Below, piece by piece: positions 3,772 through 41,253 of a stretch of 41,253 nucleotides of DNA. Below the pieces are notes generated by a model that saw only the letters and a list, made by a program, of their open reading frames with translations, was not told where the DNA came from and did not search any database. Source of the DNA: a virus; the IMG/VR virus record IMGVR_UViG_3300033148_005520, positions 1 through 41,253 of that record. One strand, 5' to 3'. Positions within the stretch are counted from its first letter, which is position 1. Every line of letters starts with the position of its first letter. Both the position numbers and the translations under genes were made by a program.

Positions 3772-3970
3772 ATTGCGCGGCGCGGCCTTTGAAGTCTTAG
3801 AACAGGCACTGAAGAGCGAGAACTGGAAGGAGCAATTAACTGCGGCGCGAATAGTGCTTGCCAAAGTTGATGGTGGCGACGAGATTGACGAGTTTGATGT
3901 TTACGAAACTGCGGTGCAGCATTATAATGAGCAGCAGCAGAAACGCAGAGCGCCCAACGATGAGGAATAA
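3755..3970 (+). CDS. Possible small terminase subunit, 71 aa
   Basis: Short acidic helical protein immediately upstream of the large terminase, with GGAGG 9 bases before ATG. The segment SELRGAAFEVLEQALKSEN plus ARIVLAKVDG resembles the helical core of some short small-terminase subunits, but at 71 residues it is much shorter than the usual ~150-180 and no HTH is evident. Assignment rests mainly on position; it could equally be an unrelated accessory gene. Confidence 0.4.
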   Translation: MLTPSELRGAAFEVLEQALKSENWKEQLTAARIVLAKVDGGDEIDEFDVYETAVQHYNEQQQKRRAPNDEE

Positions 3971-3972
3971 GA

Positions 3973-5529
3973 ATGGCGCTATCGTTTGACGAGAAGCTGT
4001 CTCAATGGTACGGCATTGAACATCGCGACCTCAGCGATGTTTCCACAAGGGCGATATGGGCAGAACGAGGCAAGAAAGATTTGCATTTCTTCTGCTTTGC
4101 CATTCTGGGCAATAGCCTGCTGGTTTCGCCAGACCGATTTCACGGGGAAATGTGCGAGAGGGCCACGCGGCGCGGCACGGGCAGGGGGCAGCTTATTATT
4201 GTGCCTCGCGGCCATTTCAAGTCCACGATAACCACTATCGGCAGTACACTCCAAGACCTCGTGATTAACCCTGACGAGACGATTTTGATTGTTACTGGGG
4301 CAACGCGGCTGCACCTCAAGTTTCTGGCGGTAATAAAGAACCACATAGAGAACAACAAAATCCTCCACGCGCTATATCCTTACCTGAAGCCCAGCGGTGA
4401 GAAATGGGACGCGGCGGAAATCATTGTCAAACGCAGCGTCGGCATCGTAGAGCCATCCATCACCACAATGAGTTGGAAGCAGTCCCCCGAAGGTACGCAC
4501 TATGGCCGCATCAAGGTGGACGACATTGCGGTGAAGGAGAATATGGAGACGCGCCACCAAGCCCAGAAGGCAACTGAGAAGCTGCTTGACTTGTGGAGCA
4601 ATGTTGAGACGGGCGACTTTCTTATCCCAGGAACGCGCTATGCTGATTACGACCCCTACGGCTATGTGATTGAAAACTTGGCGGACGATATAGATGTTTT
4701 CACACTCCAGGCGGAAATTCCTGGCACGGAAGACCCCGATAATCCTGGGCACGGACTTCCGCTTTTCCCTGAGCGGTTCCCTGGGCGGCGATTGAGGCAA
4801 CTCCGTAATACGCTGGGGGCGCGGTATTGGGCGCAGTATATGAATGACCCGATGCCTGAAGAATTGCAGGTCATTAAGGCAGCGTGGTTTAAGCCCTGGC
4901 ACGAATTGCCACGAGACGATGACGGTAATCTGCTACTCAGTGTCTACTTCGGCGGCGACCACGCTTCGGGGTCAGAGCAGGGCGGCGTCAGCGAGTCTGT
5001 GCTGATTGTTGGCGGGATTGACGAGGCGGGTAATGTCTACCACCTTGAGACGATTGGCAACATTCGTTCCACCGCCGATTTCATTAACCAGACATTTAGC
5101 CTGTGCGCTCGTTGGAACCCTGTTGCGGGACTAATTGAGATGCAGGCGGCGGCGGGGAAAATGCTTAAGGAGCAGTTCAATGCGGAGATGCGGGAGCGCA
5201 ACGAGTATATTCCTGTCAAGTTTGAGACGGGTGGCGGTATAGAGAAAACAAGACGCATTGAATTGGCTGTGTCAAAGCTCTACGAGGAGGGCCGACTTTT
5301 CCACAATCCAGATACTGACAAAGAGTTGGAGAAGCAACTTATCGGGCTAAAGAAGGCGAAGCGCTTAGACCGCGCCGACGCACTCTCCTATATGGTCACG
5401 ATTGCGTTGCGAATTGGGTACTGGAGGGATGTGGGTGAGGATGATAGCGAGGAGCGAGACCCCTTTGTGGCGAATTGGCAAAATCGGCGGAAGCGGAAGC
5501 GAAAACCGAATGGGGTGATAGTATGGTAG
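3973..5529 (+). CDS. terL: Terminase large subunit (packaging ATPase-nuclease)
   Basis: The 518-residue length fits TerL. The ATPase has Walker A PRGHFKST (residues ~78-85) and a Walker-B-like RIKVDD (~179-184). The C-terminal RNase-H-like nuclease has YFGGDHAS (Asp ~329) and a final DRADALSY acidic motif (~466-472). The very end is basic (RRKRKRKP). TerL docks on the portal, pumps DNA into the prohead and cuts the concatemer. The window shows no terminal repeat, consistent with headful cutting, but this is inference. The SD is GAGG ahead of ATG. Confidence 0.93.
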   Translation: MALSFDEKLSQWYGIEHRDLSDVSTRAIWAERGKKDLHFFCFAILGNSLLVSPDRFHGEMCERATRRGTGRGQLIIVPRGHFKSTITTIGSTLQDLVINPDETILIVTGATRLHLKFLAVIKNHIENNKILHALYPYLKPSGEKWDAAEIIVKRSVGIVEPSITTMSWKQSPEGTHYGRIKVDDIAVKENMETRHQAQKATEKLLDLWSNVETGDFLIPGTRYADYDPYGYVIENLADDIDVFTLQAEIPGTEDPDNPGHGLPLFPERFPGRRLRQLRNTLGARYWAQYMNDPMPEELQVIKAAWFKPWHELPRDDDGNLLLSVYFGGDHASGSEQGGVSESVLIVGGIDEAGNVYHLETIGNIRSTADFINQTFSLCARWNPVAGLIEMQAAAGKMLKEQFNAEMRERNEYIPVKFETGGGIEKTRRIELAVSKLYEEGRLFHNPDTDKELEKQLIGLKKAKRLDRADALSYMVTIALRIGYWRDVGEDDSEERDPFVANWQNRRKRKRKPNGVIVW

Positions 5530-10259: not shown

Positions 10260-11687
10260 ATGGCGACTTACTATCGTGATATGTCTGGTTATCAGCTAAC
10301 GAAGGGAGCAACTGCTGACGCTGATACCACGCTTGTTTACGAGGTCGGCACGTCTGAAGCGCAGACCATCACAGTCAGCAAGAATGGTGGCGCGTTTGGT
10401 GCCACTGCTGGTACTACATCAACGCAGATTGAAGGCACTGTTTACAAGCTGGTGGTGCACGAAGATGATATTGACACCGCTGGCAATGTCACCTTCAAAT
10501 CTGCGGGGGCAACTGATACTCAGTACTTGATGAACATTCTGGTCGTTTCGCACGATGTCCAAGATGATATTGCTGCGATACTGGCCGACACAGGTACTGA
10601 TGGTGTAGTTGTGGCGAGCATCAACAACAATGCCATCACTGCGGCTGCCATCAACGCCGACGCCATCACCAATGCCAAAATCGCGGACGATGCGATTGCG
10701 GCGGAGAACTTGGCGACGGGCGCGCTTACTGCTGATGCCTTCGCTGCTGACGCTATCGTAGCGGCAACACTGGCTACCGATGCCATTACCACCGATGCAC
10801 TGGCTGATGGCACGCTGACTGCGGCCAAGTTCGGCGCGGACTGCATCACCAACGCGAAAATCGCAGACGATGCGATTGCAGCGGAGAACCTGAAGACAGG
10901 GGCACTTACAGCGGACGCTTTCGCCGCTGATGCCCTCGTTGCAGCCACCTTTGCGACGGGTGCCTTCACTGCGGACGCCTTTGCAGCCGATGCGCTGGTA
11001 GCCGCAACGTTCGCGACGGGTGCTTTCACCGCTGACGTATTTGCGGCTGATGCAATCGTTGCCGCGACACTTGCCACTGACGCAATCGGAGCCGATGCGC
11101 TGGCTACTGATGCTGTTCAGGAAATCGCCGACCAAGTGTGGGATGAGCTTGCCGCTGACCACGTTGGCGCAGGCACCATCTCCAAGGCAATTCAGGACGG
11201 CGTTAGTGCTGCTGGTGTGGCAGATGCAGTGTGGGACGAGGCCGCCGCTGACCACGTTGGTGCAGGCTCGCTTGGTAAGAGTATGGCCGACATTCTTGCC
11301 GACACTGGCACGGATGGTGTGGTACTTGCTGCTGACGCCATTACCTCGGCCAAGATTGCGGATGACGCATTTTCCGCAGAGCACTTCGCCGACGATGCCT
11401 TGGCAGCCGCCGCCTTCGCCACTGGCTGTTTGACCGCCGATGCTTTTGCAGCCGATGCCCTGGTCGCTGCCACTTTCGCGACCAATTCCATCACGGCAGA
11501 CGCCATCGCAGATGGTGCTATTGATGCAGGAGCCATCGCAACTGATGCCATCACTGCGGTGAAGATTGCAGCCGACGCTATCAGTTCTTCGGAACTGGCC
11601 GCCGCCGCTGCAACCGAAATCGCCACGGCGACAACTGGTGCGGTTGACAGGAACCGCTCGAAGGTGCACTACGCACAGCCGAGCTAA
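10260..11687 (+). CDS. Virion protein with long pentapeptide-repeat region
   Basis: The N-terminal ~110 residues form a beta domain (SKNGGAFGATAG..., VYKLVVHEDDIDTAG). Residues ~125-285 and ~360-450 are pentapeptide repeats (ADAIT NAKIA DDAIA type, hydrophobic residue at the fourth place), expected to fold as a square beta-helix. They are interrupted by two VWDE...ADHVGAG motifs common in phage structural proteins. Position after capsid suggests a head fibre or decoration protein; a tail fibre is the alternative. The gene is internally repetitive at the DNA level. It is followed by a strong terminator. Confidence 0.75.
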   Translation: MATYYRDMSGYQLTKGATADADTTLVYEVGTSEAQTITVSKNGGAFGATAGTTSTQIEGTVYKLVVHEDDIDTAGNVTFKSAGATDTQYLMNILVVSHDVQDDIAAILADTGTDGVVVASINNNAITAAAINADAITNAKIADDAIAAENLATGALTADAFAADAIVAATLATDAITTDALADGTLTAAKFGADCITNAKIADDAIAAENLKTGALTADAFAADALVAATFATGAFTADAFAADALVAATFATGAFTADVFAADAIVAATLATDAIGADALATDAVQEIADQVWDELAADHVGAGTISKAIQDGVSAAGVADAVWDEAAADHVGAGSLGKSMADILADTGTDGVVLAADAITSAKIADDAFSAEHFADDALAAAAFATGCLTADAFAADALVAATFATNSITADAIADGAIDAGAIATDAITAVKIAADAISSSELAAAAATEIATATTGAVDRNRSKVHYAQPS

Positions 11688-39037: not shown

Positions 39038-40114
39038 TCACGCCCTCCCGTGGACGCTATGTCTATCAAGGTACAAGTGCGCCGCAGCAGCACCAAGCGA
39101 TGCTGGTCTCATACCCTTTTTACTGGCATAGCTGTCCTTTAAGTGCTTCTGAAAACTGCCTGTGCTAATAAGCGGCACACCATAAACCTCCACAACGCCG
39201 TCCACTACTCGCGCCTTTGATGTTTCCACACTGGCGCGCTGGTGGCGGTGCCCCATAGCTACCCAGTCGCAATCGTTCTGGGCCGCCAGCCGCTCCATTG
39301 AGTTGAGCACATATCCCCAGGTTGCCCCGCCCCCGAACCCGTGGTGCTGGAACCCTATGTACTTTTGTGTCCGACCCTTCCGTCCATCGGTTACCGTAAC
39401 ATTGACAAAGCCGCTGTACCCGCCATAGAAAATATCACACTCCTTCGCCCATCTCTTTACGGGGTCGTGGCCTATTTGCAACCCTCGCATAATCCGCTCA
39501 TCGTGATTGCCGCGATGCAACATTATGCACTGAGACATTATGGGTTCGGTATCTGCGCGCAGCAGGTCAGTCGCTTGGTCATAGGTAAGTGCCTGGCGGT
39601 GTATCCCTGGGCTTTGCATCGTTACTAAGTCCCAGTAGTCCCCCATTCCTATCCAGCGTACTTCAGGGCGTTCGGCTATCCAGTCACAGAGAGCTATAAA
39701 GCGCCGATAATCCATATCGGGCGAACCATAATGCAGGTCGCCCAGAAATATCAGATGAGCATATTCAGTGTCGCGAGGGACTTTCCACTCATAGGCAGGA
39801 GCAGTGTCGGCCCTTGCCGTAACAGCCAAATACATCTCGCGCACATTGGCAAGTGTCAGCGGCTGCTCAGTCATAGATGATAAATAGTTCTCGGCTGCCA
39901 GCAGCGGGTCAATATCAAGCCGCGAACCCTGGAGACGATTGCTCAAGCCAAGGCGTTTCCACTGGCGACGAATTATCGCATCGCTCTTATACCCCAGAAA
40001 CTCCTTCGCCAGTGTCGGCGACCCGTGGCACTTAGCGTGCAGCTCAATCAGGCCCTCATCACCAAGCTCTTTTTGCAGCAGGCTGCGCTTGCCACGATAT
40101 TGGTCAATCTCCAT
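39038..40114 (-). CDS. Calcineurin-like metallophosphoesterase with N-terminal HTH-like region
   Basis: Residues ~120-300 hold all dimetal motifs: GDLH (D126, H128), GDYWD (D159), GNHDE (N203, H204), QHHG (H257) and GHRH (H289, H291). Such enzymes cleave phosphodiesters; SbcD/Mre11-type nucleases and many phage proteins share the fold. Residues ~18-60 (HGSPTLAKEFLGYKSDAIIR) look like a helix-turn-helix, suggesting a DNA substrate. 358 residues. An SbcC partner is not seen in this window. Confidence 0.85.
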   Translation of the reverse strand: MEIDQYRGKRSLLQKELGDEGLIELHAKCHGSPTLAKEFLGYKSDAIIRRQWKRLGLSNRLQGSRLDIDPLLAAENYLSSMTEQPLTLANVREMYLAVTARADTAPAYEWKVPRDTEYAHLIFLGDLHYGSPDMDYRRFIALCDWIAERPEVRWIGMGDYWDLVTMQSPGIHRQALTYDQATDLLRADTEPIMSQCIMLHRGNHDERIMRGLQIGHDPVKRWAKECDIFYGGYSGFVNVTVTDGRKGRTQKYIGFQHHGFGGGATWGYVLNSMERLAAQNDCDWVAMGHRHQRASVETSKARVVDGVVEVYGVPLISTGSFQKHLKDSYASKKGMRPASLGAAAAHLYLDRHSVHGRA

Positions 40115-40313
40115 TGGTCAGCCCATCCTTTCGTTTCCAAAATGACCGCACACAGTTCTTGCAAAAGCTCTCATCCAAATCAAGCTCGGACAGAAGGCGG
40201 CCCTCGTAGGTATCCCACGAGTACCTATTTATGCCGCATAGATAGCTCATCTTATGCGCGTCGTACAGGTGCTTTTTCCCGCCGACAATCTGATAGATTT
40301 GGTGATGTTTCAT
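40104..40313 (-). CDS. Small basic hypothetical protein with CxxC, 69 aa
   Basis: MKHHQIYQIVGGKKHLYDAH, then CGIN and a C-terminal CKNCVRSFWKRK; His-rich start and CxxC could bind metal. No good SD, but ATG overlaps the preceding stop (ATGA), so translation probably continues from the 39-aa membrane gene. It overlaps the phosphoesterase start by 11 bases. Confidence 0.55.
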   Translation of the reverse strand: MKHHQIYQIVGGKKHLYDAHKMSYLCGINRYSWDTYEGRLLSELDLDESFCKNCVRSFWKRKDGLTNGD

Positions 40314-40429
40314 CGCCGTCGCCTCAACTCGCGGCTATTCTGAGAAGAACGCCGCGCTGCATTGACCGCCAAGCTGCCCAGAAATATCACCACGATGCCG
40401 ATACACCATAAAATCTGGCCTAATGTCAT
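40310..40429 (-). CDS. Tiny single-span membrane protein, 39 aa
   Basis: MTLGQILWCIGIVVIFLGSL begins a single hydrophobic helix (residues ~3-23) followed by a strongly basic tail (RELRRRR). AAGGAG lies 7 bases before ATG. It is the first gene after the structured leader and promoter near 40.5 kb, so its output may be controlled by that leader. Function unknown. Confidence 0.6.
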   Translation of the reverse strand: MTLGQILWCIGIVVIFLGSLAVNAARRSSQNSRELRRRR

Positions 40430-40442
40430 TTGTGTCTCCTTC

Positions 40443-40499
40443 GGCGGGGCCGAGTGTTATCGGTCAAGGAGGCGATAGCTGCTTTCACCCGACCCCGCC
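40443..40499 (-). ncRNA. 5'-terminal stem-loop leader presenting an anti-SD loop
   Basis: In the minus transcript GGCGGGGTCGGGTG (40499-40486) pairs along 14 positions with CACTCGGCCCCGCC (40456-40443), including two G-U pairs that exist only on this strand. Within, TATCG/CGATA forms a second stem whose 10-base loop is CCTCCTTGAC. The loop's CTCCTT is complementary to AAGGAG, the SD that begins two or three bases after the main stem, and equals the 16S anti-SD. The fold could hide the SD by pseudoknot or compete for it. Predicted transcription start is at or next to the first stem base. Confidence 0.65.
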
Positions 40500-40506
40500 A
40501 TTTAGT

Positions 40507-40535
40507 ATTATACCCGCCTGGCCAAAACTTAAACC
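40507..40535 (-). promoter_or_regulatory. Promoter with perfect TATAAT
   Basis: TATAAT at 40512-40507. The -35 is poor (GGTTTA at 17 bases or TTTAAG at 15), so an activator may be needed. Start predicted near 40500, which places the 14-bp stem at the very 5' end of the RNA. A 14-codon frame (MAGSGESSYRLLDR) begins at 40501 and would be leaderless. Confidence 0.65.
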
Positions 40536-40539
40536 TCCG

Positions 40540-40561
40540 CGTCAACTCGCTGGTTCATTGT
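40540..40561. repeat. 22-bp gene-boundary repeat, copy A
   Basis: Identical over 22 bp to 41131-41152 (coding-strand core AATGAACCAGCGAGTTGA). In both places it encodes the C-terminus NEPAS-stop of one gene and, in another frame, an ATG followed by NQRVD. Here the second frame is only 9 codons. Copy B at 40838-40852 keeps 15 bp. Confidence 0.7.
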
Positions 40562-40811
40562 TGGCACCCTTCTTTTGTGCTCTGACAAAAGTATCTATAT
40601 CGTACCCCGCTGGATTGGACTCTCCGTTGTCCAACATAATCGTGCAAACCCTATCACGAGCAGCATCCATTTTATTGACAATGGGAGTTCCGCCTGTAGC
40701 CTCACAATACCATCCTTGGCTCAACATAGGGCATTCAGGAATGGTCTTTCCCTCGTAATTGACATACTCAAAACAACTAGCACGAGGCAGGGCAAGTTCT
40801 TTGTCACGCAT
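40542..40811 (-). CDS. Hypothetical protein, 89 aa
   Basis: ATG (MRDKELALPRASCFEYVNYE) lies 7 bases after GGAGG; an in-frame GTG one codon earlier is possible. Four Cys (C13, C28, C37, C57) and a Pro/Gly-rich middle (CPMLSQGWYCEATGG) suggest a metal-bound or disulfide-linked fold. It ends in NNEPAS within the 22-bp repeat. No family recognised. Confidence 0.6.
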   Translation of the reverse strand: MRDKELALPRASCFEYVNYEGKTIPECPMLSQGWYCEATGGTPIVNKMDAARDRVCTIMLDNGESNPAGYDIDTFVRAQKKGANNEPAS

Positions 40812-40858
40812 CACTCACCCTCCTTATATTCGCCGAAGTCAACTCGCTGGTTGGGCAT
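40811..40858 (-). CDS. Micro-ORF, 15 aa
   Basis: MPNQRVDFGEYKEGE begins behind GAGGTGAA with proper spacing and ends TGATG, overlapping the start of the 89-aa gene. Its first codons belong to the NQRVD repeat. It may be a coupling leader peptide rather than a functional protein. Confidence 0.35.
   Translation of the reverse strand: MPNQRVDFGEYKEGE
40838..40852. repeat. Gene-boundary repeat, copy B (partial)
   Basis: Keeps GTCAACTCGCTGGTT of the 22-bp element and provides the NQRVD codons of the 15-aa micro-ORF. The flank diverges (GGGCATCG instead of CATTGT), changing MNQRVD to MPNQRVD. Confidence 0.6.
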
Positions 40859-40864
40859 CGTTAT

Positions 40865-41167
40865 TCACCTCATCACTCTGAAACCACAATAGCGCAACAA
40901 AAACTCCTGCGGATTTTGCATCAACTCGGGCCAGCCGCCGCATTCCGGACAAGCTTTCGTTGCTCGCACCTGTTTCGCCCCATTGCAGACAGGACACTCT
41001 TTCTCCTCCCAATGGAATAGCTTAGGTACTAGGATATGCCCAGTTCCCCCACATTCCTTACACGGGATTTGATATTCAATTGTACCCGTATAATTGCAAT
41101 AGCTACAAAACAAGCGCTTTCCAATGTCATCGTCAACTCGCTGGTTCATTGTCGGTGTCCTCGTCAT
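40865..41167 (-). CDS. DnaJ-type zinc-finger protein, ~100 aa
   Basis: Four CxxC motifs in the CxxCxGxG style: CSYCNYTG, CKECGGTG, CPVCNGAK and CPECGG (residues ~23-85), as in the DnaJ cysteine-rich domain, but with no J domain. It should bind two zinc ions and act in protein or nucleic-acid binding. Start at MTRTPTMNQRVDDDIG has GGAGG 10 bases upstream; the internal ATG at 41149 (MNQRVD, GAGG 9 bases upstream) is an equally good choice. Confidence 0.7.
   Translation of the reverse strand: MTRTPTMNQRVDDDIGKRLFCSYCNYTGTIEYQIPCKECGGTGHILVPKLFHWEEKECPVCNGAKQVRATKACPECGGWPELMQNPQEFLLRYCGFRVMR
41131..41152. repeat. 22-bp gene-boundary repeat, copy C
   Basis: Exact match to 40540-40561. It supplies the stop of the edge gene (DNEPAS) and the second possible start (MNQRVD) of the DnaJ-type zinc-finger gene. 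Three copies inside 620 bp suggest tandem duplication of a gene junction. Confidence 0.7.
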
Positions 41168-41253
41168 CTGTCTTAATCCTCCAGGCAATTTCCGCTCCGT
41201 GAGAACTCCCGTGAATATCAATCGGTGTATGCCCTGCGTATTGCCTGGCCTTT
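41133..41253 (-). CDS. C-terminal part of a small protein, cut by window edge
   Basis: From the right edge a frame stays open for 39 codons, KARQYAGHTPIDIHGSSHGA then EIAWRIKTDDEDTDNEPAS and TGA. It overlaps the start of the zinc-finger gene. It may be the rest of the gene that leaves the left edge, but joining the ends directly would need a one-base shift, so the junction is missing or has extra bases. No domain recognised. Confidence 0.55.
   Translation of the reverse strand, partial: KARQYAGHTPIDIHGSSHGAEIAWRIKTDDEDTDNEPAS

Follow-up and report, generated by a model that had tools for sequence, protein, structure and literature searches.

A predicted leader hairpin with an anti-Shine–Dalgarno-like loop before a small membrane-protein gene of a podovirus-type phage

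Described hairpins at gene starts

The hairpins between the early genes of phage T7 are cut by RNase III, which gives the processed early transcripts. The window analyzed here—the whole stretch of DNA, a single virus record of 41,253 bases—resembles the T7 early sites in that a Shine–Dalgarno (SD) sequence of a podovirus-like phage directly follows a hairpin whose internal loop is asymmetric; it differs in that its inner stem is weak and its processing only putative. H-type pseudoknot riboswitches such as preQ1-II draw the SD into the knot, and the window hairpin shares with them a loop sequence complementary to the downstream SD. In contrast to preQ1-II, it has no Rfam match, and its connector is too short for a 14-bp stem.

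Stem-loops at the 5′ end that stabilize mRNA are established for ompA and papA and, together with ribosome binding, for aprE (cited in PMC3997798). The leaders of ompA, papA, and Bacillus subtilis aprE carry a stable stem at or near the 5′ end followed by the SD, and the window leader would be likewise arranged relative to its predicted 5′ end. An anti-SD loop is not known to belong to this class, whereas the window leader has one and its 5′ end is a prediction. The ESAS of cluster K mycobacteriophages lie, like the window leader, at phage gene starts as inverted repeats immediately ahead of an SD-containing element; departures between their arms break RNA pairing, and a role as DNA sites was judged likelier for them (PMC3203893). 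Each genome has many ESAS copies, beside the 13-bp SAS, whereas the window leader is present in a single copy and preserves RNA pairing. The SAS 13-mer GGGATAGGAGCCC is absent at the leader, where CGAAGGAGACAC stands instead. The type I toxin mRNA aapA3 (PMC6733600) has in common with the window an anti-SD upstream of the SD and a gene for a small transmembrane (TM) protein; its anti-SD is part of a nested hairpin, whereas in the window a strong stem of its own encloses the anti-SD in its loop. Membership in the ESAS or the aapA3 class is not claimed, and a literature search on anti-SD loops in leaders found nothing beyond the aapA work.

Layout and fold of the leader

The plus strand of the window yields matches to terminase, portal, head, and internal virion proteins, the portal and internal virion protein matches being of the podovirus type. 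The minus strand carries a replication and metabolism block with a primase-like protein, a Rad52-type protein, an ERCC4 nuclease domain, and a metallophosphatase. The hairpin precedes the SD of the first gene of this block, most likely as leader or intercistronic RNA, and lies approximately 42 nt downstream of the stop codon of a 90-aa ORF, with codirectional genes on both sides. The order on the minus strand is TATAAT, 7 nt, a 14-bp stem with a 29-nt loop, one base, AAGGAG, 6 nt, and ATG:

40507..40512, minus strand: TATAAT, a possible −10 hexamer with GGG before it and without a consensus −35
40486..40499, minus strand: 5′ arm of the 14-bp stem, GGCGGGGTCGGGTG, from folding and sequence
40457..40485, minus strand: 29-nt loop region, AAAGCAGC-TATCG-CCTCCTTGAC-CGATA-A, with a weak 5-bp inner hairpin, from folding
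40466..40472, minus strand: CCTCCTT, anti-SD-like, within CCTCCTTGAC, predicted to be mostly unpaired
40443..40456, minus strand: 3′ arm of the 14-bp stem, CACTCGGCCCCGCC, from folding and sequence
40436..40441, minus strand: AAGGAG, the SD, separated from the stem by a single G
40310..40429, minus strand: 39-aa ORF, MTLGQILWCIGIVVIFLGSLAVNAARRSSQNSRELRRRR, with its ATG at 40429 and one predicted TM helix
40313–40104, minus strand: 69-aa ORF, joined to the 39-aa ORF by an ATGA overlap
39038..40114, minus strand: metallophosphatase/DNA repair exonuclease gene of 358 aa, in the same operon as the 39-aa ORF

The TM segment of the 39-aa ORF has a mean hydropathy of 2.36 over 19 residues, and a PHROGs search with this ORF gave no match. 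TATAAT, both arms, CCTCCTT, AAGGAG, and ATG all stand at the positions given in the original prediction. Its two G–U pairs, valid solely in the minus-strand transcript, are likewise borne out, and they account for both departures of the 14-bp stem from perfect symmetry. The proposed promoter fares only in part: the hexamer is present at 40512–40507, but TATAAT occurs 24 times on both strands of the window, about the chance number, no consensus −35 is found 16 to 18 nt upstream, and a promoter scan did not list the site. Transcription may start near 40500, as judged by this −10 hexamer of chance frequency; were TATAAT a true −10, at most ~1 to 3 unpaired nt would precede the stem.

The minus-strand leader RNA folds with a ΔG of −30.1 kcal/mol compared with −21.2 ± 3.5 kcal/mol for shuffled sequences (z = −2.51), a stability matched by seven of 200 shuffles. 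A G+C-rich 14-bp stem with a loop of at most 40 nt is matched three times on the two strands of the window—twice by the leader stem itself in overlapping registers—and is absent from 17 of 20 shuffled windows. The inner TATCG/CGATA hairpin gains approximately 1.8 kcal/mol (−26.8 without it, −28.6 with it) and is thus so weak that the leader is closer to a 29-nt loop holding CCTCCTT; of the stem and inner hairpin originally proposed, the stable 14-bp stem stands and the inner hairpin is marginal. The hairpin is probably real, and the leader is one of an ordinary class with an unusual loop. None of the covariance models of Rfam 15 matched the window at gathering score, and 40380–40560 at a permissive threshold gave only chance matches (E > 8), consistent with the statement that no described class has this layout. 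An intrinsic terminator was considered and rejected: there is no U-tract, the stem being followed by GAAGGAG on the minus strand and by ATTTAG on the plus strand, and a terminator scan did not list it.

The repeat AACCAGCGAGTTGAC, encoding (M)NQRVD or NEPAS, recurs where small ORFs end or start, at 40540–40564, 40838–40885, and 41131–41179 of the window. A viral contig, L004, holds a relative of the 90-aa ORF, and its sequence diverges ahead of the stem; at 3950–4480 it features some of the same small ORFs in another order around the repeat, which looks, from the arrangement of these sequences, like a recombining cassette array. A mini-ORF at 40561–40532 on the minus strand, MNQRVDAEV followed by a stop codon, terminates in GCGGAGGTTTAAG. 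This end is identical to that of the upstream gene in L002, a contig related to the window (...MAAEV and stop; L002 4785–4797), and the mini-ORF resembles the scar left by a deletion of that gene.

Relatives and similar leaders

The 358-aa metallophosphatase has relatives in the viral contigs L002 (87% identical) and L003 (77% identical) and none in the bacterial genomes searched; for the 69-aa ORF, no relatives were found. The region before the metallophosphatase in L002 and L003 contains neither the stem nor an anti-SD loop; the operon of these close relatives thus does without the stem, and compensatory changes are not observable there. The original prediction had looked to homologues for compensatory changes in stem and loop, and their lacking both counts in part against it. 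The window and L002 share the motif GCGGAGGTTTAAG-N12-GGGTA(T/A)AAT at matching positions, suggesting that they have an upstream region in common within which the stem may have been gained or lost; L003 has TTGACA-17-TATAAT at the corresponding place. The same slot is occupied in all three by single-TM ORFs of 38 to 42 aa unrelated in sequence (L002 4871–4987, L003 4861–4989, window 40429–40310), those of L002 and L003 having 38 and 42 aa, respectively, with start codons read by eye from the sequence. On the reverse strand of L002, GAGGAG and an 89-aa ORF (start 8466, reverse complement) follow a 9-bp hairpin whose loop contains CCTCC; this hairpin is likely due to chance.

Viral contigs were scanned with a pattern that prescribed the 11 inner base pairs of the stem and left the loop free. 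This gave 29 stretches, corresponding to 24 unique hairpins. Two have CCTCCTT in the loop, L013 (duplicated in L014) and L033, against ~0.03 expected by base counting from loop lengths, which is our own estimate. A control stem of equal composition also gave 24 unique hairpins, none with CCTCCTT (0/24). L013 and L033, leaders of unrelated metagenomic phages, differ in gene context, and a same-strand start codon follows the stem at a distance of 29 and 27 nt, respectively. Their stems differ from that of the window by G–C/G–U exchanges only, but as they were found by fixing the stem, this likeness is not independent evidence and only the loop counts. When the three leaders were aligned with MAFFT, the stems came out misplaced, and this alignment was kept out of the covariation assessment. 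The excess of CCTCCTT loops is suggestive, yet small and sought after the fact. We consider it doubtful that the window, L013/L014, and L033 represent an undescribed recurring phage leader element—a stem GGGGYCGGGUG...CAYYCGGCCCC with a CCUCCUU loop ~13 to 30 nt before the start codon—that would tune translation by anti-SD:SD contact. If the shared anti-SD loop were real, a compact leader element of phages would imitate the anti-SD tail of 16S rRNA; if not, the leader is one more of the many GC-rich hairpins just before phage ribosome-binding sites.

Other searches bear on how widespread such leaders are. Scans of the viral and bacterial collections that required the loop but only 9 bp of the stem added no convincing leader. 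A 20-mer of the leader had no match in the viral contigs, and a BLAST search of phages and plasmids with the leader returned chance-level short matches only, no named phage or plasmid having it. L034 and L035 fit the pattern of the loop and were rejected, as the stem does not form. The stem plus anti-SD pattern gave 32 matches in bacterial genomes; among the matches listed, all fall within long ORFs and look like chance. Hairpins 5 to 45 nt before SD-bearing start codons number 92 in 0.55 Mb of nonredundant viral sequence, some of them adjoining ORFs of doubtful reality. Anti-SD 5-mers are not generally enriched in these start-proximal hairpins (3 of ~90 without L013 and L033 versus ~3 expected), and the CCTCCTT 7-mer is found in none of the ~90 beyond L013 and L033. 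A different leader hairpin of 20 bp, GAAGGGTGGGTGRCGTGGRC...GTCCGCGTCACCCGCCCTTC, precedes AGGAGG and a 259-aa gene in L075, L076, L081, L084, and L095; it is conserved with one-sided changes, in phages of ~75 kb.

Competing explanations

With moderate confidence, we favor an ordinary leader hairpin that would stabilize the message or insulate the SD, the role of its anti-SD loop being uncertain. The 14-bp stem would act as a structural cap against decay, either at the 5′ end, should transcription start near 40500, or at a processed end. It would also prevent base pairing between upstream sequence and the strong AAGGAG, leaving the SD available to the ribosome, and the CCTCCTT loop may be incidental or a minor modulator. 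A stem stronger than in shuffles, two G–U pairs valid in the sense transcript, and the commonness of start-proximal hairpins with an SD in unrelated phage contigs support this reading, for which the stabilizing stem-loops of ompA, papA, and aprE provide precedents. Counting against it are the weak promoter, the absence of the stem from L002 and L003, and the anti-SD loop, which it leaves unexplained and which recurs in L013 and L033.

The loop was originally proposed to mask the SD in cis, and a translational switch of this kind would have CUCCUU and AAGGAG form a pseudoknot until a ligand, a protein, or the ribosome frees the SD. The 6-bp CUCCUU:AAGGAG duplex, at −8.9 kcal/mol, is on par with that of the 16S tail (−8.8 kcal/mol), and the CCTCCTT loop is also found upstream of genes in L013 and L033, the former with a geometry (12-bp stem, ~17 nt to GAGGAGG) that would fit an H-type pseudoknot. 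The match between loop and SD in L033 is only ~5 bp long and includes one G–U, and the two close relatives of the operon have neither stem nor loop. Chance co-occurrence is not negligible, CTCCTT followed by AAGGAG within 10 to 40 nt being present in seven of 100 window shuffles; when the 29-nt loop is shuffled, 3.8% of the resulting sequences hold a stretch of 6 nt or more complementary to the 20 nt that follow, and 0.4% contain CTCCTT itself. The complementarity of loop and SD thus has modest support over chance. Forced nested pairing of loop and SD is ~13 kcal/mol worse and loses the 14-bp stem, so the helix is predicted to be too stable for the 6-bp alternative to open. A pseudoknot preserving the stem would have to run loop strands of 14 and 9 nt back along 14 bp with a connector of 1 nt, which would be possible but strained; a normal H-type pseudoknot would probably not span the 14 bp. 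With the coding sequence added, the SD is predicted to be only partly open, owing to downstream pairing and not to the loop. Masking in cis is therefore not upheld, and on energy and geometry we consider such a switch unlikely. Action in trans, in which the loop, predicted to be mostly unpaired, would act as a 16S rRNA mimic or compete for SDs on other mRNAs, is scarcely credible: the closest SD is that of the leader itself, there is no terminator to yield a small RNA, and nothing else points to it.

An RNase III-like cut of the hairpin between the 90-aa and 39-aa genes, after which the message would start at or near the SD, would agree with the position of the hairpin after the upstream stop codon between codirectional genes, with its asymmetric internal loop and ~19 bp in all, and with the podovirus-type matches of the genome; given the weak inner stem, we hold this processing site to be possible but not probable. 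A palindrome acting as DNA, either operator or recombination site, has a precedent in the assessment of the ESAS repeats (PMC3203893), and apparently recombining repeats adjoin the hairpin; with one copy in the genome and both asymmetries being G–U pairs in the sense RNA, it is improbable. A type I toxin-like leader would restrain the SD of a toxic 39-aa TM protein by anti-SD elements during transcription, as in the aapA mRNAs. The small single-TM protein and the anti-SD element upstream of the SD fit this picture, and metastable UCCU anti-SD hairpins are described for aapA3 (PMC6733600). It is nevertheless very improbable: the aapA3 anti-SD nests with the SD whereas the 14-bp stem forms in the window, a consensus scan found no promoter-like site on the plus strand facing the leader from which an antisense RNA could start, other operon genes follow the 39-aa ORF, and unrelated TM ORFs replace it in the relatives.

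Elsewhere in the window, at 10638–11267, a 475-aa ORF of the structural region contains internal repeats of 180 and 40 nt.
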